From a virus, in the IMG/VR virus record IMGVR_UViG_3300044533_001947, positions 1 to 39,939 of that record: 39,939 nucleotides of DNA; one strand, written 5' to 3'. Numbering within the stretch: position 1 is the stretch's first letter; every line of letters begins with the position of its first letter. Both the position numbers and the translations under genes were made by a program. The notes beneath the pieces are model-generated. The model did not search any database, was not told where the DNA came from, and saw only the letters and a program-made list of their open reading frames with translations. This document shows positions 4,824-39,939 of the stretch, piece by piece.

Positions 4824-5396
4824 ATGTCTGACTTCACGAGCGCCACCGCGCGCGCCTACCCCAAATCGACCCTGGAGCACATCCTCCGCGAGAGCGAAGA
4901 CCGCGTGCTGCGCGCCAAGGCCGACGCCTTTGACGACCTGCGCGCCGGCGTCCGGTGGCTGCTCGAAGTGATGGGCCCCAACGGCCTGCGCGACATCAGC
5001 CACGACGCCCCCGAGCCCGTCGAGGTCAAGACCGACGGCGCCGACACCCAGCCCCAGCCCCCCATCGAGGCCATCACCACCACCCCCGACGCCGACCCCT
5101 TCGCCCCCGCCAGCCCCACGGAGGCCCAGCCCCAGCCCCGCCGCGGCGGCCGCCGTTCCCGCCGCTCGGAGGAGGGGCAGCCCCAGCCCCAGGACGCCGG
5201 TCCCAGCCCCGAGCCCCAGCCCGCCCCCGAGGAGGGTCAGCCGCTGACCGCCGAGGCCTTGGGGCTGACCCCTGAGCCAGCGCCCACGGCCCAGCCCCTG
5301 CCCCTGCCCGTGGTCGAGGCCCCCGACGTGTCCACCGCCCCGGCCACGGCCGACGACGTGTACGGCACCGAGCCCGCCGAGGACCCCTTCGCCTAA
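4824..5396 (+). CDS. Pro/Gln-rich protein with acidic C-terminus, 190 aa
   Basis: Residues 1-70 form a folded, helical-looking domain (YPKSTLEHILRESEDRVLRA; FDDLRAGVRWLLEVMG). From about residue 75 to the end the protein is low complexity, with repeated QPQP and PEPQP units encoded by CCCAGCCCCAG repeats, an Arg cluster (RRGGRRSRR) and a very acidic end, EPAEDPFA. The tail is reminiscent of the acidic tip of single-strand binding proteins, but the final Phe is followed by Ala, so this is only a suggestion. It has a good Shine-Dalgarno (GAGGAG) before the ATG and follows the exonuclease partner by 3 nt. Confidence 0.7.
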   Translation: MSDFTSATARAYPKSTLEHILRESEDRVLRAKADAFDDLRAGVRWLLEVMGPNGLRDISHDAPEPVEVKTDGADTQPQPPIEAITTTPDADPFAPASPTEAQPQPRRGGRRSRRSEEGQPQPQDAGPSPEPQPAPEEGQPLTAEALGLTPEPAPTAQPLPLPVVEAPDVSTAPATADDVYGTEPAEDPFA

Positions 5397-6066: not shown

Positions 6067-6095
6067 GCCCAACGGCCGGCCCTGGCCTGTCCTTC

Positions 6096-6118
6096 GCACC
6101 CCGAGGCGCCCGGGGTGC
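6096..6118 (+). other. GC hairpin in the leader of the SbcC-like gene
   Basis: GCACCCCG (6096-6103) and CGGGGTGC (6111-6118) form a perfect 8-bp stem with a 7-nt loop, 30 nt upstream of the ATG at 6149. No T-run follows. It is one of the series of leader hairpins in this operon. Confidence 0.6.
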
Positions 6119-6148
6119 TGCCCCTCACCTGCCACGGAGCCGACCACC

Positions 6149-8287
6149 ATGCCCCGCCTCACCACCCTCCACATCACCGGCCTCGGCCCCCACGCCGCGC
6201 CCCTCCCGCTGGCCCTGCCCGCCGCGCCCGTCGCCGAGCTCGCCGGCCCCTCGCAGGCGGGCAAGTCCACGACCCTTCTCGCCCTCTGCCTCCTGCTGAC
6301 CGGGCAGGCCCCGGACGGGAGCGCCTTCCCCGTCGAGCTCTTGAACGACACCGTGGACGACGCCGACGCCAGAATCTCCGCCGTCCTCGCCGACGGGTCA
6401 GCCCTCGCCCGCACGATGACGCTGAGCAGGTCGTCGACGTGGAAGACAGCCTCACCCCCGCAGGTGCCGGCAGACCCCAAGAGCCGCATCGTGACCTCCT
6501 TGCAGAGCCAAGCCGCGTGGCAGGCATCATTGGGAATCGACGCTGACCTCACCCGCGCCATCCTCTGCCCCGGCGAGGCGCTGGCCCTGACCCGGCAGGC
6601 CCGCGGCCGGCCGCTGCGGGACCTTCTGCTCTCCGTCCTGCCCCCCGTCGACGTGCGCGCCATCGTCGCCCAGTGGGTCGGCGGGTTGACCGAGGATGAG
6701 GCCCACGTCGAGGAGGATGTGGGCAAGGGCAAGGCCCGCGTCATGGGTGCCAAGTCGCGCCTCACCGCCGCGAACAAGGCCGCCGCCGAGGCCGCGGGCG
6801 CCAGCGCCGAGGCCTCGAACGCGCTCGACGCCACCCGCGCCGCGCGCCCCACCGAAGGGCCAGCCCAAGGCCTCGACGCGCTGAAGGTCAAGGCCGACGC
6901 CGCCCAGCTGTGGCTGGCCCAGGCCGACGCCTACGCCTCCACCGTCGCCGACCACGCCCTGCAGCACCGGTACACTGAGGCTGCCCAGCGCGCCCACGAC
7001 GAAGCGCAGGCCCGGGCCGCAGCTTGGGACAGCCGCGCCGCCGAGGTGTCGATCCCCGACCACCCCGGCGAGATGCCGTCCGCGTCTGCGCAGGCTGGGG
7101 AGCGGGTCAGGCGGGCGGGCGTGCTCGAGGCCGCGCAGGCCAGCCTCGCCGTAGCCCAGAGCAGGGCGTGGGAGGCGGCCCGCTGGTCCGACCCGATGGT
7201 GTCGCAGCGCCGCGCGAGCCTCACGCTCGCCGTCGAGGCTGCCGACCGCGCCGCCGCCGGGCCCACCGATGGGGACTGCCCAACGTGCGGGCAGCAGGTC
7301 AGCGCCGAGCACGCCGCGGCCCATCAGGCGCGCGCCGTCGAGGCCGTGGCTCAGGCCCGCGCCGCACTCGAGCTCGTCGAGGCTGAGCAGGCTCGCGAGC
7401 GTGAGCAGCGCGTCGCTCGAGCTAGGGGCGTGGTCGAGGCCGCGGAGGCCAGTCTGGACGAAGCCCGAGCCGCCCTCGCAGCCGCCGACGCGGACCTTGA
7501 GGCCGCCAAGGCCGCGCAGGCCCAGCACCAGGTCTTGCTGAACCAACGGGCCGCCGCCATCGCCGCGCAGAAGGCCCTCGGCCCGCGCCCCACCGTCCCG
7601 TCCGCCCCCGAGCCCGTCCCACCCCTGACCCTCACCCCGCCCGCCCACTGGGGCGACGACCACGGCGCCGCCACCCGGGCCCGCGCCTCTGCCTCTGTGG
7701 CCGCCTACGCGGCCGCTCAGGCCCGGCAGGCGGGGTCAGCCCTCGCCGCGTGGGAGGCGCAGGTCGCGGCCGCTGAGCAGCGTCTGGCGGCCGCCCAGAC
7801 CCGCTCCATCGCCGCCCAGGCCGCGGCCGCCCGCGCCGAGCGCGTGCTCGACGCCGTGCGCCGGGCCCCGACTGAGGCTGCGGCCCGGTCCTCTGCGGCT
7901 CTGGGGCAGGTCCTCCCGCCGTCGTCCGGCGTCTCGATCCGCTGGGGCGGCCCCGAGGAGGGCGGGCCCGAGGTCGAGGTCTTGATCGACGGCCGCCCGT
8001 GGTGGTGCGCCAGCTCCGGCCGCCAGGTCGTCGCCGACCTCGAGCTGCGGCTGGCCCTGCGCCGCTTGGCCGTCGCCCGCACGGCTGGGGCCAGCCTGCG
8101 GTCGGGCGCCCTGCTGACCTACGCCGACGTGCCGGTGGTGGTCGACCGCGCGCAGGACTGGAGCGGCGCTTGGCCCAGCCTGCGCCCCGGCGAGGGCTCC
8201 GTGCTCCTCATCCGCACCGTGTCTCACACCACCCCGGGGCCGGCGATCCGCGTCTCTGCCCACACCACCACGTCCGCTCGGAGCTGA
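6149..8287 (+). CDS. SbcC/Rad50-like SMC-family ATPase with zinc hook
   Basis: The 712-aa product has the SMC/Rad50 plan. There is an N-terminal Walker A (GPSQAGKST, residues 33-41), a long Ala/Glu-rich coiled coil from about 200 to 590 interrupted by a CPTC zinc-hook motif (Cys377, Cys380), and a C-terminal ATPase half with a signature-like SSGRQVVADLELRLALRRL and Walker B (VPVVVDRAQDW, Asp666). The usual catalytic Glu after the Walker B Asp is replaced by Arg. Rad50/SbcC proteins tether and process DNA ends; phage homologues sit beside exonucleases. No SbcD-type phosphoesterase is visible, so the partner may be the exonuclease at 3304 or a host protein. The ATG at 6149 has GGAG in the GGAGCCGACC leader. 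Confidence 0.85.
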   Translation: MPRLTTLHITGLGPHAAPLPLALPAAPVAELAGPSQAGKSTTLLALCLLLTGQAPDGSAFPVELLNDTVDDADARISAVLADGSALARTMTLSRSSTWKTASPPQVPADPKSRIVTSLQSQAAWQASLGIDADLTRAILCPGEALALTRQARGRPLRDLLLSVLPPVDVRAIVAQWVGGLTEDEAHVEEDVGKGKARVMGAKSRLTAANKAAAEAAGASAEASNALDATRAARPTEGPAQGLDALKVKADAAQLWLAQADAYASTVADHALQHRYTEAAQRAHDEAQARAAAWDSRAAEVSIPDHPGEMPSASAQAGERVRRAGVLEAAQASLAVAQSRAWEAARWSDPMVSQRRASLTLAVEAADRAAAGPTDGDCPTCGQQVSAEHAAAHQARAVEAVAQARAALELVEAEQAREREQRVARARGVVEAAEASLDEARAALAAADADLEAAKAAQAQHQVLLNQRAAAIAAQKALGPRPTVPSAPEPVPPLTLTPPAHWGDDHGAATRARASASVAAYAAAQARQAGSALAAWEAQVAAAEQRLAAAQTRSIAAQAAAARAERVLDAVRRAPTEAAARSSAALGQVLPPSSGVSIRWGGPEEGGPEVEVLIDGRPWWCASSGRQVVADLELRLALRRLAVARTAGASLRSGALLTYADVPVVVDRAQDWSGAWPSLRPGEGSVLLIRTVSHTTPGPAIRVSAHTTTSARS

Positions 8288-10262: not shown

Positions 10263-11197
10263 ACCCGACCTTTACCACCATCCTCGCCGCCGACTTCACA
10301 GGCGAGCACGTCAGCGTCAACGATGTCGGCGCCCTGCGCGCCCGCGCCGAGACGTGGGAGGCCACCGCGAACACGTGGCGCGCCTTCGCCGTCGACGTTG
10401 CCCGCGTAGTTGGCACCGAAGACCCCGAGGACGTGGGCATCGAAGACCTGCGCGATCTTGCCGAGGCGGTGGAGCAGCTGCGCGCCCAGGCCGAGGCCGC
10501 TGAGGCCAAGGCCAAGCAAGCCGCTGACGACCACGACTTTCTCGCCCGGCAGATCGGCGCCGCCGCGGTGGCGTCAACGCTGGCCCCCGGCGAGAGTTTG
10601 GTCCGCGAGCCGGGCGAGACGCCATTCTTCCTCATCGGCGTTGTCGAGCGCTTGGTGGCCCGCGCCCACGCCGCCGAGGCGACCGCCGCCCGGCTGAACG
10701 CTGCGAACGTGCGCCTCATGCGGCGCCTCGCCCCAGCCATGGGGGCGTGGAAGGCTGCCGCCGACGAACTCGCAAAGATGGGCCGGCGGGCAGTGGAGGC
10801 CGAGGCCGCGGTGGCCGCCGCTGCAGCGGCGGGCCCCATCACCGTCTGCGACTGCGGCGTGGGCGGCCCGCGCCTCTGCGATGAGGACGGCCTGTGCGTG
10901 AACTGCGGCTGTGACGTCGTCGTCGTCGCTGACCAGCACAGTGCCGACATCGTCGCCCAACTGCGGCAGGAGCGCGAGGCCGCCGAGGCGCTGGCCACCG
11001 CGCGGGCGGAGGTTGACGCCGCCTTTCAGCAAGGCTTGACCGCCGGTCAAGTGGCAACCTGCGGCGCGCTGAGCGCCATTGCTGCCGAGGTCGCCAGCGC
11101 CGGGTTCGACGAGACGGCGACCGCCATTCGCATCGCGGCGGCGACCTTGATCAAGGCTGACCTTCGGCTTGAGCGCGGCCCAGTGGAGAGCGCATGA
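10259..11197 (+). CDS. helical protein with C-terminal cysteine cluster, 312 aa
   Basis: It begins at the ATG at 10259, overlapping the previous stop. Most of the protein is Ala/Glu-rich and helical (residues 25-105 and 150-200), with coiled-coil character (AEAVEQLRAQAEAAEAKAKQ). At about residues 197-221 a cluster CDCGVGGPRLCDEDGLCVNC offers six to seven cysteines, probably a zinc-binding knuckle. A further helical region follows (AQLRQEREAAEALATARAEV). I know no matching family. An architecture of coiled coil plus zinc knuckle would suit an oligomeric nucleic-acid or protein-binding factor, which is inference. Confidence 0.7.
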   Translation: MNPTFTTILAADFTGEHVSVNDVGALRARAETWEATANTWRAFAVDVARVVGTEDPEDVGIEDLRDLAEAVEQLRAQAEAAEAKAKQAADDHDFLARQIGAAAVASTLAPGESLVREPGETPFFLIGVVERLVARAHAAEATAARLNAANVRLMRRLAPAMGAWKAAADELAKMGRRAVEAEAAVAAAAAAGPITVCDCGVGGPRLCDEDGLCVNCGCDVVVVADQHSADIVAQLRQEREAAEALATARAEVDAAFQQGLTAGQVATCGALSAIAAEVASAGFDETATAIRIAAATLIKADLRLERGPVESA

Positions 11198-31485: not shown

Positions 31486-32991
31486 TCACCACGTCTTCAC
31501 CACGGGCGCGGCGGCGCGGCGCCGGGCGCCGGCCCAGTGCAGGACCAGAGCGTAGCGCAGGGCGTCCAGCGCGTCCTTGGTCGGGTGCATCGTCGTCCCG
31601 TCCCAGGCTTCAATGGCCTGCCGCACGCGCACGCACGAAGCGTCGAGCCACCACTGGCTGCGCAGCATCACCGCGTTCATCCAGCGGACGCTCGGCCAGA
31701 GCCCGCCCTCGCGGCCCAACCTGCCCACGCCCGGGACGCGCTTGGCGTTCATCACGGGGGGCGACAAGTGGGCCTGCCCAAGCAAGCGCGACACGTGGTG
31801 CGCCATCAGGCCGTTGGACTTGCGCGTCTCGCGGCCGCTGGCGTCCGTGAGCTTCTTGTCGCCGAAGACGCCGTCGAGGTCACTCCACCGCAGCCCGTGC
31901 GCCGCCAGCATCCCGAGCACGGCCTCGGCGTCCTGCTCAGGCAGGGTGGGACGGTCGGGCAGCCACTCGCCCAGCACCCAGACCCGCGTCTCGCGGTCGT
32001 CGCCGGCGGGGTCGGTGTAGACGGCGGCGAGGACTGCCGCGGTCCGGAGCTTGTCGTCGCCGTAGTCGATCCCCAGGTACAACTCGGCCGGCCGCTGGCC
32101 GGGGCCGGCGGCGCTGTCTCGGAGGGACGGGATCGCCATGCGGGCGCCGTCCCAGCCGCTGAAGATCTGGACGTCGCTGCGGAACTCCCATTCGCCGTCG
32201 ATGCGGACCGGCTCCTCGCGTGGGTCGCTGAGCTGGCGCTGCTCCTCGATCCACGCGGCATCCATCGGCCGCACCTCGCCGGTCTCAGGGACCGGGATCG
32301 TCAGCACGGTGCCGTCTTCGGTTGCAAGGTTCTCCGGCGTGCAACGGAAGTGCAGATCAAGGATCTGCCCCGCCTCGCACGCCTCCTTGAGCCAGTCGAT
32401 TTTGGCGTTGATGGGCGTCATCGTCAGCACGATGCGCCCGCCGGTCCGAAGAAACCGGCGCTCCAACTCGGTGAAGATCGCGCGGTCCTTGGGCGGCTCG
32501 TCGTACAGGATGAGGTCGAGCGTCCCGCCCGACATTGACTTTGCACCTTGGTTCTCGGTGCGGATGCGAATAACCGACCCGTTGCGAAACTCAAGCGCCG
32601 GAGCCTTAGTGCCAAACCCGTTTTTCGGGTCGCACGCCTGCCCCGGCATCAGCTCATCCTTGGGACAAAGTGCCCAGAGCTTCGCCTGAATGGCGAGACT
32701 CTGTGTCCAGTCGACGCACACGATCATGATTTGGACGGGCGGCTCTTTCGTACGAACGTAGGGGTTCCAGCCCAGGGCCGCCCAAAGCACCAACACTAAG
32801 CCGGCGGTCGTCTTGCCGATCTGATTGCCGGTCCTGAGCAAGACCCGCTGCCCGCGCGACTTCCACAGCGCGATCTGCGGCGGGGTGCCGCGGAAGAGAG
32901 CGAGCGGGTTGCGCGCCTTCGCCTCTCGCAGCTGCCGCAGCCGCTGCGACGTGCGCATGGCTGGGGCGACGATGGTGGGGTCAGCCGTCAT
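31486..32991 (-). CDS. terminase large subunit
   Basis: The 501-aa product carries the packaging ATPase and nuclease. Walker A is TGNQIGKTT (54-62), a variant found in many phage terminases. Walker B is LDLILYDEP (158-166). A coupling motif follows in IVLTMTPINAK (187-197). The C-terminal nuclease has Asp309 in LYLGIDYGDDKL, Asp377 in DGVFGDKK, and Asp473/Asp476 in TKDALDALRY. It cuts and pumps DNA into the prohead through the portal. The ATG at 32991 overlaps the end of the upstream gene by 11 nt. No copy of the GGGNCAGCC motif was seen inside this gene apart from its very start. Confidence 0.92.
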   Translation of the reverse strand: MTADPTIVAPAMRTSQRLRQLREAKARNPLALFRGTPPQIALWKSRGQRVLLRTGNQIGKTTAGLVLVLWAALGWNPYVRTKEPPVQIMIVCVDWTQSLAIQAKLWALCPKDELMPGQACDPKNGFGTKAPALEFRNGSVIRIRTENQGAKSMSGGTLDLILYDEPPKDRAIFTELERRFLRTGGRIVLTMTPINAKIDWLKEACEAGQILDLHFRCTPENLATEDGTVLTIPVPETGEVRPMDAAWIEEQRQLSDPREEPVRIDGEWEFRSDVQIFSGWDGARMAIPSLRDSAAGPGQRPAELYLGIDYGDDKLRTAAVLAAVYTDPAGDDRETRVWVLGEWLPDRPTLPEQDAEAVLGMLAAHGLRWSDLDGVFGDKKLTDASGRETRKSNGLMAHHVSRLLGQAHLSPPVMNAKRVPGVGRLGREGGLWPSVRWMNAVMLRSQWWLDASCVRVRQAIEAWDGTTMHPTKDALDALRYALVLHWAGARRRAAAPVVKTW

Positions 32992-33571
32992 TGCCGACCA
33001 CCCGGAGGCGGGTGTGCACGGTCGGGGCGAGGCGGTCGAGGATCTGCCGACGCTCCCAGTCCGACATGCTGAGCACGTCCGCGATCACGGACTCGAGCAC
33101 GTCTCCCGCCGGGGTGCGCGCAGCGGCGGCCTCGGCCTCGGCCTGCTCTCGGGCCAGCCGCGCGGCCCGGACCTCCTGCAGCTGGCGCTCGGCTGCCCCC
33201 GCTGCGACGTGGCTCCCAGCGGCGACGGCCTCCCGCATCTGGATGAGCAGGCGGCGCTCGACGTCGCTCTCGGCCGCCAGCGTGGCGGCGATGTCGTAGC
33301 GGTGGAGCTCGTCGCGGGCGTTGTGCAGCTTGCCACGCAGGGCCAGCCGGTCGCGGTCGTGGCCGCCGCGCTCCTCGAACTCGGCCAGGTCGCGCTCCCA
33401 CTCGGCGATGTGCGCAAGCAGGGTCTGCCGTCGCTTGCCGCCGATGGGGGTTGAGGCCTGCACAGGCGTCGAAGCGGGGGGCTGCCCCTCGGTGGTGGTG
33501 GCGCTCTGGGGGCCCGTGTGGGCGGCCGGAGCACTCTCTGGCCGGGCCTCAGCCGGGCGGCGTGGCGGCAT
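32981..33571 (-). CDS. putative terminase small subunit, 196 aa
   Basis: First gene of the late operon, overlapping the large terminase start by 11 nt. The N-terminal 45 residues are low complexity (Pro/Ala/Thr/Gln). The rest is charged and helical (LLAHIAEWERDLAEFEERGG; RRLLIQMREAVAAGSHVAAG; EVRAARLAREQAEAEAAAAR), ending in VLSMSDWERRQILDRLAPTV. Small terminases are helical oligomers that recognise the packaging site, and position and helical content fit. A helix-turn-helix is not obvious, so the role is inferred. Confidence 0.6.
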   Translation of the reverse strand: MPPRRPAEARPESAPAAHTGPQSATTTEGQPPASTPVQASTPIGGKRRQTLLAHIAEWERDLAEFEERGGHDRDRLALRGKLHNARDELHRYDIAATLAAESDVERRLLIQMREAVAAGSHVAAGAAERQLQEVRAARLAREQAEAEAAAARTPAGDVLESVIADVLSMSDWERRQILDRLAPTVHTRLRVVGNDG

Positions 33572-33675: not shown

Positions 33676-33704
33676 ACACTACCGGCCGGTCGGTGGAGCG
33701 TCAA
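33676..33704 (-). promoter_or_regulatory. leftward late promoter
   Basis: On the leftward strand TTGACG (33704-33699), a 17-bp spacer and TAGTGT (33681-33676) give the best sigma-70-like promoter in the window, about 95 nt ahead of the first late gene. The spacer holds the palindrome ACCGGCCGGT (33681-33690). GACGTTGC, shared with the early promoters, lies 8 bp upstream of the -35 (33712-33719). Confidence 0.6.
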
Positions 33705-33763: not shown

Positions 33764-33824
33764 GTGAACGTGCTCACTCGCCGAGCGCGCTCATGGGTCA
33801 GCCCTTGGCCTCGAGGGGTGGCGG

Positions 33825-34174
33825 GGTGGGATGCGAGGCCATCCCACCCCGCAGGTGGGATGCTGAAACCCATCCCACCCGTACCTATCGCCGCCTTGGA
33901 CCTGCCATATCGGCCCGCTGGGTGGGATGGGTGGGATAGCCGGCCACCTCCCGCATGTATGCGCGCGCGTGGTGCGCGCTGCGCTACACACGGACGTTGC
34001 GTGCGTACACGATTGAATGAAACTCCCGCGTACATAAAGACATCCCACCTATCCCACCTATCCCACCCAGCACGACGTTTAGGGTCTGCCATACGGTGTT
34101 GTCGACGAGGTGGGATGGTCTGAGCTATCCCACCCCGCGGCGTCGCATCCCACCTCAGGCTGTCCCATCCCACC
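33825..34174. repeat. cluster of 13 GGTGGGAT/ATCCCACC octamers, candidate replication origin iterons
   Basis: Exact GGTGGGAT starts at 33825, 33854, 33921, 33930 and 34109. Exact ATCCCACC starts at 33841, 33872, 34042, 34051, 34060, 34127, 34147 and 34167. The copies at 34042-34067 are in tandem at 9-bp spacing, and a further copy lies at 34393 inside the replicase gene. Composition predicts well under one copy in 350 bp. The cluster is just downstream of the replicase gene and encloses the most A+T-rich stretch of the region. This fits iterons for a replication initiator, most simply the Prim-Pol/AAA+ protein. Confidence 0.75.
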
Positions 34175-34198
34175 CGACCCACCCTCTGCCGACTCCAA

Positions 34199-34218
34199 CC
34201 GTATCGCGATTGATACGG
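34199..34218. promoter_or_regulatory. inverted repeat CCGTATC-N6-GATACGG
   Basis: Two 7-bp arms separated by GCGATT form an operator-like site between the iteron cluster and the terminator. A 9-bp direct repeat ATGACGTCG (34230-34238 and 34292-34300) flanks the terminator nearby. The binding factor is unknown. Confidence 0.4.
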
Positions 34219-34251
34219 CCGCTATGTGCATGACGTCGCACCAAACACGAA

Positions 34252-34279
34252 CGGCGCAGAGGGCTGTCCCTCTGCGCCG
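34252..34279 (-). terminator. intrinsic terminator of the replication operon
   Basis: A perfect 12-bp stem (CGGCGCAGAGGG with CCCTCTGCGCCG) has a 4-nt loop and begins about 29 nt beyond the replicase stop. On the leftward strand it is followed by TTCGTGTTT, a modest T-rich tail. It would stop leftward replication-operon transcripts before the origin-like region. Confidence 0.8.
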
Positions 34280-34307
34280 CTGTTGTCATCTATGACGTCG
34301 TGGTGGG

Positions 34308-37019
34308 CTATCTGGCCGCGAATGGGAGGACCTGCCCGCCGACCTCAACCTCTCCCACCTCGCGCAGCTGGTAGGTCGTGACGCCGTGCAGCATCCCACC
34401 CGCAACCACCTCAACCTCGCCGGCCTCGAGCCGCCACACGCGCCCGCGTAGCCGCCCCAGGGCAGCCCCCAGCCTGCGGGACCGGCTCAGGTGCTGCCCG
34501 TCGCCCAGCACGCCCAAAAGCAGCCCCCGCTCCGCGCAGACGGTCGCGAGCTCGCCCGCGCCGCGCCTGCCCCGCAGGGTCGGCTCCGTGGCCCAGAGCT
34601 GCAGCAGGCCCTGCCACTCGGCCGTCTCGGGGTCCACCTCCGCCGTCCGATGCTCCCGGTCGCCGAGGAAGCCGACCACGCCGCACGCCGAGAGGATGCC
34701 GCCCATGACGCGCGACCACGACTCATAGCTGCCGAGCGTGGCTGTCCCCGCGGGTCGACCCTCGAGCTGCCACGTCTGGACCAGCGTCAGCAGGGCGCTC
34801 AACAGGTCGTCGCGATGCTCGGCGGTGAAGCGCAAGAGGTCCGCGTGCCTCCACCCGGTGCGCGTCTCAGGCGTCGACGTGCGGGCGTTGAGCCGCACGC
34901 TGACCGTGCGCCGCTGCAGGTCAGCGTTCATCGTGAGGTTGTTGCCGGACAACCCCCAAACAGCCGTCGCAGGCACCCGCAGCCGGTCCTGCCCGCCCAT
35001 CCGCCGGTCGCTCCACGTCGGGTAAGCCGTGAGCACCCCTTCAAGCGCGGGGTCATGCAGGTGCCCGCGCACGTTGTCGAGGAGGACCACGGGCCGGCCC
35101 TCCTGAAGCAAGCTGCCCATCGCCTTCCGCCGCTCGTCCTCTTGGCTGGACATCGGCGTCGGCTCGACCGCCCTTCCTGTGGCGGCAGTCGCGAGGACCT
35201 GCATGAGCAAGCTCTTCCCCGTGCCCGCGGCCGGCGCTTCAAACACCGTCATCGGCACAGGCCCGCCGATGAGGTCCCGCACCAAGGGGCAGAGCGCGAA
35301 GGCCAGCGCGTGCGCGCGGTCGGACTGCCTCTCGAAGGGGAACTGCCCGATCCAGTCGTCGATGACGCTGAGGGCTTCGTCCACGCCCATCTGGCGCCGC
35401 CGCAGCGTCCCCGACAGGTAGCCGCGGCTGCCCGCGTCGTAGCCCTCGGCCACGACCAGCCGCCCATCCGCGTCGTAGTAGGGGGCTGTCGCGACCCTGC
35501 TGAGCAGGGGCAGCCAATCGCCTCTCTGGCCCTGCAGGCCGGTGACCAAGTACGACGGGAGAGCCTTGGCGGGCTCTTCGAGCATGACCTCACCGGCGGT
35601 GATCTCCTTCGGCCGCGGCTTCCTGAGCTCGATCCAGTCGGCCGCGTCGATCAGGGCCGCGGTCAGCTCTGCGCCCCCGACCTCGCGGATGGCGGGGCCG
35701 TGCTCGCTGACCACCACCTGCACAAGCCGCCCGTCCCGCAGGTAGAGCCGGGCCGGGCCGCGGAGGCTGGCGAGGGCACGCTGTGCGTCGCGCAGGACCT
35801 CGTGAAAGGGTCGGTGTGTGCAGACGATGCGGCGTCTGCCCATGACCTCGACGCCGGAGACCTCGGGGTCCTCCTCGCCCACGTCCTGCAGGCCGACGCC
35901 CGGGACGTGATCCTCATCGTGCATCCCGTCCCACGTCGGCTCGCCCGGGTCCAGCGTCTCCGGCGCGTCCGGGCTGCCCCAGTCCTCCCATCCATCGCCT
36001 GCGGCCATGCCACCCCCTCGGCTGTCCCTCATCCCGTCGGGCAGCGGCGGCAGGTCGCGGGGCTCGTTCATGCCGTGCTGGACGCCGTCCCTTGCGGTCC
36101 GGCGCGCGTCCTTCTCGGGCAGCCCAGCCCTCATCGCCGCCTCTGCCAGCGCAGCCGTCGCCTGCTCTTCGTCGGGGCTGTGCACAAGGTGAAGCCACCC
36201 GCCGATGGTGCGGGCCTCCTTGAGCAGGCTGGCGTGCCGCTGCCCCGCCGTGAGCTTCTCCAGCCGCTCGCACGCCCGGCTCAGCGCCCCCGCGACGTAG
36301 CGGCTGGCCCTGTCGCCCCCGACCTCCCACGACCGGTCCTCAGCCCCGCCAGAGGCGCTCAGGTCTCGCCCAGCCGCCGGCGCGACCTTGGCCTCGTCTC
36401 TGGCGCGCACGGCCGTCTCAAGCCACCCAGGCGCCGCGCAGAGGGCCTCAAGCCCCGCCCCCTCGCCCCAGGTGTAGCGCGCGCCTGTGGCGTGCATGGA
36501 GGGCGGCGCGACGATGTACCCGCCCAACCCCCGCGTGTCGGCGCTGGCCCACGCCCCGTCGTGCCGCAGGACCCGAGCCCGGGACCTGATGGCAGACCCA
36601 GCCTCAGGCCACCGCCAGAGCAGGTGCATCCCGCCCGAGCCCGTGAGGCTGACCGCGCCCTGGGGCAGCCCCCCGTGGATCTCGGCGAGGACTTCGAGGG
36701 CGTCGCGGCCGTCGATCTCCTGAGCCTTCGGCCGGTCGAGGTCCAGCACCCACCACCCGGTCAGCCCCTCGGCCGTGCTCGGCCCCGTGGCAAGGCCCAC
36801 GTTCGCCGTCGGCCAGCGGGCCCACCATGCCCTCACCTGCTCAGGGTCAGCCGAGGCCTCGCGGACCCCGTGCGCAAGCCGAGGGTGTTTGCCCGGCGAC
36901 TTGCACGTCGTTGGCTCCGAGCACGTGCACTCGCCGAGGTGGTCGACGCTGTGCAGCGGGAGGACGCGGAGGCCCTGCCCTGCGTAGGCGAGGGCGGCGC
37001 CGAGAAGGTCAGCCGACAT
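34308..37019 (-). CDS. primase-polymerase (Prim-Pol) fused to AAA+ helicase-like domain, 903 aa
   Basis: The N-terminal domain (about 1-205) is of the bifunctional primase/polymerase type. It has a zinc-stem-like CTC-x5-C-x2-PGKHPR (31-46), a metal-binding DLD in WWVLDLDRP (93-95), SGGMHLLW (His132) and GGYIVAPPS. The C-terminal half has Walker A EAPAAGTGKS (594-603), Walker B VVLLDN (644-649), sensor GNN (692-694) and Arg703-Arg704, as in D5-like or superfamily 3-type AAA+ helicases. It would prime and unwind DNA at the origin. I chose ATG 37019 because it overlaps the upstream stop by 11 nt and starts the conserved domain. A long linker (about 205-470) carries acidic low-complexity stretches. 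Confidence 0.88.
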   Translation of the reverse strand: MSADLLGAALAYAGQGLRVLPLHSVDHLGECTCSEPTTCKSPGKHPRLAHGVREASADPEQVRAWWARWPTANVGLATGPSTAEGLTGWWVLDLDRPKAQEIDGRDALEVLAEIHGGLPQGAVSLTGSGGMHLLWRWPEAGSAIRSRARVLRHDGAWASADTRGLGGYIVAPPSMHATGARYTWGEGAGLEALCAAPGWLETAVRARDEAKVAPAAGRDLSASGGAEDRSWEVGGDRASRYVAGALSRACERLEKLTAGQRHASLLKEARTIGGWLHLVHSPDEEQATAALAEAAMRAGLPEKDARRTARDGVQHGMNEPRDLPPLPDGMRDSRGGGMAAGDGWEDWGSPDAPETLDPGEPTWDGMHDEDHVPGVGLQDVGEEDPEVSGVEVMGRRRIVCTHRPFHEVLRDAQRALASLRGPARLYLRDGRLVQVVVSEHGPAIREVGGAELTAALIDAADWIELRKPRPKEITAGEVMLEEPAKALPSYLVTGLQGQRGDWLPLLSRVATAPYYDADGRLVVAEGYDAGSRGYLSGTLRRRQMGVDEALSVIDDWIGQFPFERQSDRAHALAFALCPLVRDLIGGPVPMTVFEAPAAGTGKSLLMQVLATAATGRAVEPTPMSSQEDERRKAMGSLLQEGRPVVLLDNVRGHLHDPALEGVLTAYPTWSDRRMGGQDRLRVPATAVWGLSGNNLTMNADLQRRTVSVRLNARTSTPETRTGWRHADLLRFTAEHRDDLLSALLTLVQTWQLEGRPAGTATLGSYESWSRVMGGILSACGVVGFLGDREHRTAEVDPETAEWQGLLQLWATEPTLRGRRGAGELATVCAERGLLLGVLGDGQHLSRSRRLGAALGRLRGRVWRLEAGEVEVVAGGMLHGVTTYQLREVGEVEVGGQVLPFAAR

Positions 37020-37605
37020 CAGCCACCCCCGCCACATCCTGCCAAGCCCGCTCCGCCTCCACTTCCCATCCAGCGGCCATCTCCGCCGCCTCACCCGCCT
37101 CCACGCGCTCCACCGCCCGCCGGGCCACGCTCCTGACCCGCTCCACCGGCCCCAGGAGAGCAGATGCCTCCCGCGCGTCCCGGGCTTCCCACAACCGGCT
37201 CAGCAGCGTCAGGGCAGCCCCCGCGATCAGCCCCCGCCGCACCGCTCGCCGCACCTCACCCCCCGACGTCCCAGGCGCCCACACCTGCCACCCCTGCCAG
37301 CAGACGACCCCCTGCCCAGCGGTCCCGTGCGCGCCGAGGTCGTGGGCCACAGCGAGGGCCAGCCCGACCGGGCAGTCGACCACCTCGACGCCGCAGGGGC
37401 TGCCCCAGCACATCAAGACCCAGCCGGGCAGGACCACCTCCCGGTAGTCGTCCGCCCCAGCCGGCCGAGCGGCAGGCCGCTCGTCTTGCCCCGCAGGCTC
37501 CCCGCCCCGCAGGACCAGCACCCGCGCCCGGGCCTGCCCCCGGGCCCATCGCAGGCCCTCCCAGCACGTCTCCACCACGTCCACGCCTTCCTTTGCGTCA
37601 AACAT
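37009..37605 (-). CDS. hypothetical protein between helicase and replicase, 198 aa
   Basis: It overlaps the helicase end by 8 nt and the replicase start by 11 nt, so it is tightly coupled to both. The middle is hydrophobic and strand-like with repeated Cys/Trp (VVLPGWVLMCWGSPCGVEVV; GQGVVCWQGWQVWAPGTSGG). The ends are helical (GEVRRAVRRGLIAGAALTLL; VARRAVERVEAGEAAEMAAG). No catalytic or metal motif is clear. It may be a replisome accessory. I cannot assign a family. Confidence 0.65.
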   Translation of the reverse strand: MFDAKEGVDVVETCWEGLRWARGQARARVLVLRGGEPAGQDERPAARPAGADDYREVVLPGWVLMCWGSPCGVEVVDCPVGLALAVAHDLGAHGTAGQGVVCWQGWQVWAPGTSGGEVRRAVRRGLIAGAALTLLSRLWEARDAREASALLGPVERVRSVARRAVERVEAGEAAEMAAGWEVEAERAWQDVAGVADVG

Positions 37606-39577
37606 CCGCCACCTCCTCAGTGTGTTTCGCCCTGTTACCCGACACATACGCGGCCCTGTGCGCCTTCCTCGCGCTCTGCACAGCCATCCGCCCCCACGCC
37701 GCGCCGATCAGCGCCGACGCCTCCCCCTTCCGCAGCTCCGTGAAGTCCCGCTCGAACCTCATCGCCCGCAACATCCGCACCTGCCCCGGGGTGGCCGGCT
37801 CCTCCCGCCAGCCCGCCGTCAGGTCCGGCGCCCGAGCCCTACCACGAAGCCACGCCTCCCCCGCGCGCTGACGGGACAGCCTGCCGAGGACCCCTTGCTC
37901 TTCGACGATCCGGCCGCGCTGCCTGTCCGGCACCGCGTGCGCGTGGGCTGTCCCCCGCTTGTCGCCGTTGACCACCTCGCGCCGCTCGGCCGTGTACAGC
38001 ACCCACCCGCCGCCAGAGGTCTCGGCGACGACGGCGTGGAGGGTGACGCGGCTGTCTTCCTCGCCGTGGGAGGGGCGGGCCTCCGCGCTGGCCACCCACC
38101 ACCGCCCCGGCTTCGCGCCCAGCTCCACCCAGGGCCACGCGCGCGAGGGGTCAGCCCCCGGCAGGATGCAGACGGTGCTTTCAGACGTCCCCGTCACCCG
38201 CAGCGGCACAGGGACCGCCTCGACGAGGTTCTTGGGGGCCCTCGACAGCTCCGCGAGCCCATGCAGCCGCACAGCCTCGGCCGGCGGCTCATCGGCCCCC
38301 ACACCCCACCGGACGCGCGCGAGGCTGTCCCCCCTGACCTCCATGACCTGCCCGACCCCCAGATCGTCGTACCTGTGGACGACGAGGTCACCGGGGCGGG
38401 GCTGCCACGCGCTGGCACCTGCAGCCTCGACGTCGCCGGCGCCTTGGTCCGACAGGCCGGGGACGTGGCTGAGGTCCAGAACGTCCAAAAAGCCCACGAA
38501 GTCGACGACGAGGCACCCGGTCTTGTTGGTCTGCGGGGACAGCCGCAGGCCGCGCCCGACAAGCTGCTGCGCGATGATCTGGCTCTTCGTCGGCCGCATA
38601 CACAGCAGCACCTCCACCCCCGGCGCGTCGAAGCCCTCGAAGAGCAGGTCGCGGCTGACCAACCCCCGCAGCCGGCCCGAGCGCAGGCTGGCGATCCGCT
38701 CCCGCCGCACGCTCAGCGGCTGTTCCCCATGCACGGCCTCGCAGGCCACGCCCTCCGATTGAAGAGCAAGGGCCAGCCGCTCCGCATGGGCAATCGATAC
38801 CGCGAACGCGAGGAACGGCCGCCCGCCGCCGTTCTCGGCGTACCAGCGTGCCACGACCTGGTTTCTTTCGTCGTGGTCGATGACCTTGGCGAGGTCTTCC
38901 TCGGCAAAGTCCCCGCCGCGGACCTGCAGCCCGGACAGCTCGACGTGCGTGTCGACGCGGATGGCGGAGGGCGTCACAAGGTCCCCGCACTCAATCGCCT
39001 GCCGGATGCCGTGCTCGTGAACGATGGCCTGGTAGACGGCGCCGAGGCCTTTGATTGACCCTGCCTTTGCCGTGCGGAAGGGAGTCGCCGTCATGCCGAC
39101 GTGCAGGACTTCGGGCAGACCCAGGGCCTGCCGCACGGCGTTGACCTTGGCGTAGACGGCCTGGTAGGTGGCCGCCTCGGCATGGTGACACTCATCGGTG
39201 ATCACCAAATCAAACCGCCCAACTTGGTCGAGCCGCGCGCCTTTCAGGGTCTGCACAGACGCAACGACAATACCGGCGCCGATGCCGTTCTCGTTGCCCT
39301 TCACCACGCCGGGCGGGGGCCCGGAGATCAAGGCCACGCGGGCGGCCAAGTCACGGATGAGCTCATCCCGGTGCACAAGGATGAGCACGCGCCACGCGCT
39401 CTTTTCGACCAACCGGGCCAGCCCGGAGAGGAGGGTGCCCTTGCCCGTGCCTGTCGCCGCCGTCACGACGATCCGGCGCAGGCGGTCCGGGCCCCAAGCC
39501 GCATCACGGATGGCGGTCAGGGCCTCGGTCTGCCACGCGCGCGGGGACTGCCCTGGGGGGCAGGGGAGGGCCTTCAT
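37598..39577 (-). CDS. SF2 DEAD/DEAH-type helicase with tudor-like insert, 659 aa
   Basis: The start is the ATG at 39577, overlapping the methyltransferase stop (ATGA). Helicase motifs are clear: Walker A TAATGTGKGT (39-48), DECHH box (128-132), TATPF (163-167), a second RecA domain with FEGFDAPG and motif VI QQLVGRGLRLSP (337-348). This matches the UvrB/RecG-neighbour phage SF2 family. Residues about 394-425 (RPGDLVVHRYDDLGVGQVME) resemble a small tudor/CarD-like barrel. The C-terminus has TPGQVRMLRAMRFERDF and GEASALIGAA, an end motif I recall from phage helicases and nucleases. It probably unwinds or remodels DNA for replication or recombination beside the Prim-Pol protein. Confidence 0.88.
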   Translation of the reverse strand: MKALPCPPGQSPRAWQTEALTAIRDAAWGPDRLRRIVVTAATGTGKGTLLSGLARLVEKSAWRVLILVHRDELIRDLAARVALISGPPPGVVKGNENGIGAGIVVASVQTLKGARLDQVGRFDLVITDECHHAEAATYQAVYAKVNAVRQALGLPEVLHVGMTATPFRTAKAGSIKGLGAVYQAIVHEHGIRQAIECGDLVTPSAIRVDTHVELSGLQVRGGDFAEEDLAKVIDHDERNQVVARWYAENGGGRPFLAFAVSIAHAERLALALQSEGVACEAVHGEQPLSVRRERIASLRSGRLRGLVSRDLLFEGFDAPGVEVLLCMRPTKSQIIAQQLVGRGLRLSPQTNKTGCLVVDFVGFLDVLDLSHVPGLSDQGAGDVEAAGASAWQPRPGDLVVHRYDDLGVGQVMEVRGDSLARVRWGVGADEPPAEAVRLHGLAELSRAPKNLVEAVPVPLRVTGTSESTVCILPGADPSRAWPWVELGAKPGRWWVASAEARPSHGEEDSRVTLHAVVAETSGGGWVLYTAERREVVNGDKRGTAHAHAVPDRQRGRIVEEQGVLGRLSRQRAGEAWLRGRARAPDLTAGWREEPATPGQVRMLRAMRFERDFTELRKGEASALIGAAWGRMAVQSARKAHRAAYVSGNRAKHTEEVADV

Positions 39578-39939
39578 CGGGCCCCCTTCGCGCGCCAAGG
39601 CGGCAGCAGGCTGATCCGCGACGTGGTGCCCTGACGCTCGCCTTCCTCCCACACGCAGAGCACCGACCCGCAGGTGTCCCCCGAGGTCAGCGCGGCGCCA
39701 CCGGGGCCACCCCAGCGCGGCCGGATGGGGCTCACGACGAAGTAGTGCGGCGGGTCCTCGCCAGCGATCAGCTGCCCGATGGTCGTCTCGCGCAGAAGCA
39801 GGGCCACAACCGACGCGCCGGCCCGGTCCTGCAGGGAGCGCAGATCGCGCACCGTGTCGTAGATGCCCTGGTAATGCGGGTTCGTGACGATCCACGTCCG
39901 CCACGGCAGGCCGGCCGGCGGGCGCCACGTCGACACCGG
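39574..39939 (-). CDS. DNA N6-adenine methyltransferase-like protein, C-terminal part (cut by window edge)
   Basis: This is the 3' part of the gene that begins at 289. It contains the catalytic motif IV as TNPHY (residues 93-97 of the joined 195-aa protein), where N6-adenine methylases usually have NPPY or DPPY. The His in place of the second Pro is unusual. The rest (ASVVALLLRETTIGQLIAGE; DPPHYFVVSPIRPRWGG) fits the end of the Rossmann-type fold. The stop overlaps the helicase start. No target-recognition domain is evident, so specificity is unknown. Confidence 0.75.
   Translation of the reverse strand, partial: PVSTWRPPAGLPWRTWIVTNPHYQGIYDTVRDLRSLQDRAGASVVALLLRETTIGQLIAGEDPPHYFVVSPIRPRWGGPGGAALTSGDTCGSVLCVWEEGERQGTTSRISLLPPWRAKGAR
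39873..39939. repeat. 67-bp terminal direct repeat, right copy
   Basis: This is an exact copy of bases 1-67. Joining the two copies restores a single 195-codon methyltransferase-like gene across the junction, which supports circularity of the sequenced molecule or of the assembly graph. Confidence 0.95.

Follow-up and report, generated by a model that had tools for sequence, protein, structure and literature searches.

A candidate iteron-type replication origin downstream of a phage Prim-Pol/AAA+ replicase gene, and its apparent exchange together with the C-terminal half of the replicase

Just downstream of the gene for a 903-residue Prim-Pol/AAA+ replicase, the viral contig analysed here (39,939 bp; the window from here on) carries 13 copies of the octamer GGTGGGAT within 350 bp. 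We propose, with a probability of roughly 0.8, that this cluster is the iteron-type replication origin of the phage and that it is recognised by the C-terminal half of the replicase. The window and its relatives display an array whose spacing and position are conserved, a link between this array and the C-terminal half of the replicase, the joint replacement of the two, and the coincidence of the array with an A+T maximum and a switch in GC skew. The window contig has a 67-bp direct terminal repeat and is therefore probably complete.

Layout of the octamer array

An initial annotation of this DNA had reported 13 exact octamers in positions 33825-34174, five in one orientation and eight in the other, three of them in tandem at 9-bp spacing, with a sole further copy at 34393. 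Our recount was identical on each of these points, and it added a second tandem, a pair on the left side of the array. The sites and the elements that they form are as follows.

33825..34174, no strand assigned: iteron cluster, putative replication origin, with 13 GGTGGGAT in the extended form R-GGTGGGAT-R
Starts 33825, 33854, 33921, 33930 and 34109, + strand: GGTGGGAT sites
Starts 33841, 33872, 34042, 34051, 34060, 34127, 34147 and 34167, - strand: GGTGGGAT sites
34393..34400, - strand: isolated 14th octamer, within the 3' end of the replicase (Prim-Pol) gene
33917..33939, + strand: left arm of an inverted repeat (23 bp), formed by two iterons at 9-bp spacing
34049..34071, - strand: right arm of the inverted repeat, with a 109-nt loop and the third tandem iteron at 34042
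33938..34041, no strand assigned: core between the convergent iteron arms, a candidate unwinding element, relatively A+T-rich, with alternating purine-pyrimidine tracts

The exact octamer thus occurs 14 times in the window, against a mean of 1.01 and a highest count of 5 in 100 shuffles, and the Poisson chance of at least 13 copies in 350 bp is ~3e-37. When the whole genome was scanned for clusters of any 8-mer, this array was the strongest and the runner-up reached 6 copies. That second cluster, formed by CCCAGCCC within ~245 bp (5053-5297), lies inside a reading frame and is probably coding repetition. Since 13 of the 14 copies of GGTGGGAT are in one cluster, the octamers are not spread evenly over the genome, a distribution that the initial annotation had named as speaking against an origin; dispersed genome-wide sites, e.g. 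stoperators, were rejected on the same count.

The bases that flank the octamer are also constrained, being purines on either side (R-GGTGGGAT-R). From start to start the sites are spaced by 16, 13, 18, 49, 9, 112, 9, 9, 49, 18, 20 and 20 bp, with the 9-bp tandems formed by the triplet 34042/34051/34060 and the pair 33921/33930, and the array is roughly mirror-symmetric about the core of ~104 bp. As a single strand, the DNA of the array folds much better than its shuffles do (z -6.3). An inverted repeat predicts such folding, so that this value alone is no proof of a hairpin.

The core had also been described as relatively A+T-rich, and this was borne out by an A+T content of 38.5% over 33938-34041 against a genome mean of 26.6%. 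In this genome of 73% G+C, the most A+T-rich 50-bp window starts at 34012 and the most A+T-rich 100-bp window at 34006 (34006-34105), and both cover the right-hand part of the core as well as sequence of the right arm.

The replicase and its neighbours

All genes around the cluster lie on the - strand. Along that strand, the order is helicase, 212-aa protein, replicase, hairpin, cluster, 196-aa protein, large terminase and 492-aa protein. The cluster lies 134 bp past the end of the Prim-Pol gene (34308), on its 3' side, in accordance with the earlier description of a position immediately downstream of the Prim-Pol/AAA+ gene.

37598-39937, - strand: helicase (PHROG 16)
34308..37019, - strand: replicase, 903 aa, with an N-terminal Prim-Pol domain (PF09250), an AAA+ helicase with the Walker A motif EAPAAGTGKS, and a predicted C-terminal winged helix
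34311..35861, - strand: C-terminal half of the replicase (residues 387-903), the protein part of the exchanged cassette described below
34353..34631, - strand: predicted winged-helix domain (residues ~797-889), presumed to bind the iterons
34250..34281, - strand: terminator-like hairpin of 14 pairs at the end of the replicase gene
34199..34218, no strand assigned: palindrome CCGTATC-N6-GATACGG in the replicase-terminase intergenic region
32981..33571, - strand: gene for a 196-aa protein without a family match, in the position of the small terminase; its counterpart in the relative G002 is 96% identical
31486..32991, - strand: terminase large subunit
Next to the large terminase, - strand: 492-aa protein in the portal position

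The start codon of the replicase was set from its homologues. Its N-terminal Prim-Pol domain matched PF09250 with an E value of 7.4e-38. Of an SF3 helicase domain, as in replicases of the pRN1 ORF904 type, Walker A/B-like and GNN motifs were seen and there was no Pfam helicase match, while the PHROG matches of the protein were to primase and to unnamed families. The C-terminal winged helix is predicted by a local model of moderate confidence (pLDDT ~72-89 over the domain); the full-length model, with a mean pLDDT of 44, was too poor for use. Compared with solved winged helices, the C-terminal model gave Z values of 6-7, the fold being a very common one, and a Foldseek search with this model against the PDB gave no match at E 0.001. 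By sequence, no solved homologues of the C-terminal half were found. The origin-binding domain of P4 alpha was absent among the structure matches listed, which excludes nothing, and a scan of genome contigs with the replicase alignment returned distant N-terminal (Prim-Pol) relatives only.

The repeat word follows the C-terminal half of the replicase

Relatives of the replicase with 61-66% identity were found on five contigs (G001 to G005). An absence of the cluster beside homologous replicases had been named as evidence against an origin, and the same octamer cluster was in fact retained 3' of the homologous replicase gene in G001, G003 and G005. At the same place, G002 and G004, which differ in the C-terminal half of the replicase, carry a cluster of another repeat, TTGCGGGGGTTG, as an initiator-iteron pair predicts.

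Over the remainder of the locus G002 and G004 are the closer relatives of the window. Their helicases are 95% identical to that of the window, compared with ~53-62% for G001, G003 and G005 (the G005 helicase being only partly in its locus). The 212-aa protein (g212) is 87-90% identical in the former and was not detected in the latter, and the protein in the small-terminase position is 54-96% (96% in G002) against ~30-34% identical. The large terminase (TerL) is 82-99% identical (99% in G002) against 56%. That the closer relatives nevertheless carry the other repeat is a contradiction which is resolved by an exchange within the replicase gene: residues 1 to ~386 of the replicase are ~95% identical to G002 and G004, whereas residues 387-903 are 72-77% identical to G001, G003 and G005 and ~40% to G002 and G004. 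A scan of nucleotide identity delimited the exchanged segment, across which identity falls from ~0.9 to 0.55 for G002 and G004 and rises from ~0.55 to 0.78 for G003.

33776..35860, no strand assigned: exchanged 2.1-kb cassette, consisting of the C-terminal half of the replicase and the iteron cluster

The segment from ~35,860 to 33,776 comprises the C-terminal coding half and the entire cluster, and nothing more. On these identities, the window is a natural recombinant in which a cassette was exchanged among sister phages. The bounds of the cassette indicate that the repeat word goes with the AAA+ and winged-helix half of the replicase and not with the primase domain, the helicase, the 212-aa protein or either terminase.

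The internal layout of the array is retained along with the word. Read in the direction of the replicase, and with GGTGGG-NN variants counted for the comparison between genomes, the spacings are 20-20-18-49-9-9-112-9-49-18 in the window, 20-18-49-9-9-104-9-47-18 in G001 and G003, and 20-20-18-49-9-9-101-9-48-18 in G005. In the alignment, iteron columns are 81-98% identical compared with 45-50% for spacer columns, and in all four of these genomes the inner pairs make up the arms (18-23 bp) of an inverted repeat with a loop of 100-109 nt. This pattern indicates that the architecture of the site is under selection.

Other elements of the locus were also compared. The palindrome CCGTATC-N6-GATACGG occurs once per locus, in the same intergenic region, in each of G001 to G004 (L004 8292; L005 10142; L006 9180; L011 964). 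Its placement relative to the iterons varies between the loci, and it was not found in the G005 locus (L014). In G002 the 212-aa gene and the replicase are separated by an additional ~1.1 kb (L005 ~6079-7226), which is absent from the window.

The recombinant is a single one, and its exchanged coding half directly adjoins the cluster, so that the co-transfer could be simple linkage. The octamer would then be tied to the C-terminal half only physically, its ligand would be some other protein, of the host or of the phage, and the origin would not be recognised by the replicase. We regard this as unlikely, since the repeat differs between the two lineages just as the C-terminal half does, since the helicase, g212 and the primase domain all stayed with the other lineage, and since the C-terminus of the replicase is predicted to fold as a winged helix, the domain that P4 alpha and ORF904 have there.

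A skew switch at the cluster

A GC-skew plot had been suggested as a check on the origin, and it gave a divided answer. The raw cumulative GC skew reached its maximum inside the iteron cluster in the window (33838), in G003 and in G004, the last of which has the other repeat word TTGCGGGGGTTG. However, the sign is that of a terminus, as by the usual bacterial rule the maximum of the cumulative skew marks the terminus, and the G005 contig, a fragment, had no skew switch at the cluster. The skew minimum of the window was located at 10738 (10.7 kb), where the whole-genome 8-mer scan revealed no repeat cluster. Third-codon-position skew in the window tracked the strand and not the direction of the genes: for + strand genes it was negative before ~11.2 kb and positive after, for - strand genes the coding-strand skew changed its sign from one side of the cluster to the other, and the genes on either side of the switch at the cluster share their direction. 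Such a strand-bound switch suggests that the cluster marks a boundary of replication. We read the cluster as an origin with an inverted skew asymmetry, opposite in sign to the bacterial convention, and this is the main difficulty of the origin reading.

The cluster could instead be a replication terminus, in accordance with its place at the cumulative skew maximum, or a parS-like partition array, as phage direct-repeat parS arrays beside a rep gene are known (PMC7157519). We consider both very unlikely. The skew minimum, as stated, is without a repeat cluster, and no ParA or ParB match was obtained among the window reading frames scanned against PHROGs or Pfam. Moreover, the array co-segregates with the helicase half of the replicase, and in SaPI and SCCmec it is the helicase that binds the similar arrays 3' of its gene (PMC7581432).

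Transcription control or packaging

The location of the cluster upstream of the late genes, just beyond the terminator-like hairpin, would also suit repressor operators or other transcription control of the late (terminase-structural) or replicase operon. Such a function is highly improbable: 13 sites in two orientations, with dyad symmetry about a core of ~100 bp at the A+T maximum and with conserved spacing, are unlike an operator, and the exchanged cassette carries no regulator gene. A weak promoter-like sequence, TTGACG-N17-TAGTGT, was found by eye at 33676-33704, under the search threshold; it is not part of the cluster, and by descent it belongs with the terminase lineage.

The location between the replication and packaging modules, beside the gene in the small-terminase position, could likewise suggest binding sites of the small terminase subunit (pac or cosB-like), but this is scarcely credible and was rejected, since the octamers are not conserved with the small terminase: G002, so similar in both terminase proteins, lacks the octamer cluster, G001, G003 and G005 carry the octamers despite their divergent small-terminase-position protein, and the swap boundary at ~33,776 keeps the region upstream of this gene with the terminase lineage. 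Because the word segregates with the C-terminal part of the replicase, recognition by the terminase is excluded, and an initiator-iteron pair fits.

Proposed mechanism and known systems

Three sequence features expected of an iteron origin were found here: one short word clustered by the initiator gene and rare elsewhere, an A+T-rich region beside or between the iterons (with its maximum at 34006-34105), and a cluster which is conserved at homologous initiators and whose word changes with the initiator. The relatives, the A+T maximum and the 8-mer scan thus support the view of the initial annotation that this cluster is the strongest origin candidate.

If the cluster is the origin, copies of the 903-aa replicase would bind the GGTGGGAT octamers via their C-terminal winged helix. 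The dyad-symmetric array, in which outer sites are followed by 9-bp pairs or triplets converging on the ~104-bp core, would assemble AAA+ rings that flank the core. These rings may then open the core in its A+T-rich part and travel outward, giving bidirectional initiation, with primers presumably laid by the N-terminal Prim-Pol domain.

The initiator helicases SaPI Rep and SCCmec Cch2 use a C-terminal domain to bind iterons located directly 3' of the genes that encode them (PMC7581432). In the window, too, the iterons form an intergenic array directly behind the initiator helicase gene; it differs in that the initiator carries an archaeo-eukaryotic Prim-Pol at its N-terminus, the iteron is GGTGGGAT, the element is a probably complete phage, and binding is presumed. 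The initial annotation had suggested a new initiator-iteron pair. The pairing is supported, as the word changes with the C-terminal half, but its novelty is tempered by iteron clusters 3' of the initiator gene being already established (PMC7581432). In a text search for the octamer GGTGGGAT, whose letters occur in 1,069 papers, the best matches among the 15 listed were unrelated.

P4 alpha combines, in one protein, a Toprim-type primase, a helicase and a C-terminal winged helix that recognises origin repeats (PMC4234260). Compared by description, the window replicase has the same combination of primase, helicase and (predicted) C-terminal winged helix, whereas its primase is a Prim-Pol. The iterons of P4 alpha presumably differ from those of the window.

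ORF904 of pRN1 has a putative origin 3' of its gene with a required stem-loop (21-nt stem, 58-nt loop) and was described without iterons; stem-loops rather than iterons have been proposed for proteins of this class (PMC4234260). The window replicase probably has this domain order too, with a Prim-Pol, a putative helicase and a predicted C-terminal winged helix, likewise with a putative origin 3', and the large-loop inverted repeat is similar, with 23-bp arms and a 109-nt loop in the window. In contrast to pRN1, the arms in the window are made of iterons and more sites lie around them. A pRN1-type origin consisting of a ~100-nt stem-loop without iterons was rejected, as the iterons form and surround the inverted-repeat arms.

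Arrays in other primase-helicase viruses

When 2.9 million viral contigs were searched for a core of 66-96 bp with octamers on its two sides, 10 contigs outside the family of the window were returned. In six of them, the cluster lies directly 3' of a primase-helicase gene from another family: a BT4734-like_N gene with PriCT_2 in L025, L039, L043 and L062 (L039 being placed by position and near-identical flanking DNA), a DUF5906 gene in L033 and an AAA_25 gene in L103. The polarity of these six is reversed (ATCCCAC-core-GTGGGAT), their sites being of the GTGGGAT type. In the other four (L065, L071, L073 and L104), no replicase was recognised next to the octamers. Octamer-flanked, very A+T-rich cores near terminase or tail genes in L065, L071 and L073 count against the origin reading; the L065 contig encodes a VapE-like helicase ~25 kb from its sites. 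This contig also encodes an 836-aa large terminase with LAGLIDADG/Hom_end domains (L065 2479-4989), which looks intein-containing. GGTGGGATNGGTGGGAT was present in 53 contigs, mostly inside reading frames, and is therefore not diagnostic by itself; only flanked-core patterns pick out origin-like loci.

Arrays of other words were found among annotated records. Archaeal virus vir525 (BK063673) has nine copies of TACCCGCA around an A+T-rich stretch (L106 5645-5978), starting 34 bp past the stop codon of its phrog_10537 replicase gene. Rhizobium phage 16-3 (DQ500118) has 13 copies of GCGTGACA (L127 6502-6829; ~56,244-56,571 of the record) directly 3' of the Prim-Pol gene p101, with the array starting at the end of p101. 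Both resemble the window in having clustered 8-mers 3' of a replication gene, the clusters of these two starting at, or at most 40 bp from, its stop codon, and differ in their repeat words and, for p101, in an AAA_25 helicase domain. No origin is annotated in the stretches of the two records that we read. The 16-3 array is a candidate origin in a cultured phage, and no paper on the 16-3 origin was recognised among the matches listed. In vir555 (BK063671), eight copies of CAGTTGAA lie inside the DNA primase gene rather than 3' of it (L123 5249-5540).

It is conceivable, if doubtful, that tailed bacterial and archaeal primase-helicase viruses share one origin plan, with iteron-built inverted arms around a core of ~100 bp directly behind the 3' end of the replicase gene. 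Such arms might serve both as sites for the winged helix and as the stem in a structure like that of pRN1, and the C-terminal half of the replicase together with the origin might be a portable cassette, exchanged between phages, which changes the match of initiator and origin (replicon compatibility) and leaves the primase and packaging genes in place. It counts against the origin reading of the window cluster, however, that most of the distant relatives checked lack such an array: besides vir525 and 16-3, the other eight annotated records surveyed had no cluster directly 3' of the gene. The large fused replicases of CcrColossus, DSS3_MAL1, MD18 and Cp1R7A-A1 had no 3' cluster, and TPWB-08 and Rctr197k had none directly 3' of the gene.

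Implications

As far as we found in the literature, the origins of Prim-Pol/AAA+ phages are mostly unmapped. The window offers a candidate iteron origin for the Prim-Pol class, in which an ORF904-like protein is combined with iterons, as opposed to the stem-loops proposed previously (PMC4234260). Conceptually it falls within the known iteron origins, while a natural swap is rare. Judged by sequence comparison, this natural recombinant would place the recognition function in the C-terminal half of the protein, and the presumed matched pair of initiator-iteron specificities, GGTGGGAT and TTGCGGGGGTTG, suits swap experiments. Clustered 8-mers directly 3' of the replicase gene may furthermore serve as a simple predictor of the origin in other phages, including the cultured phage 16-3.
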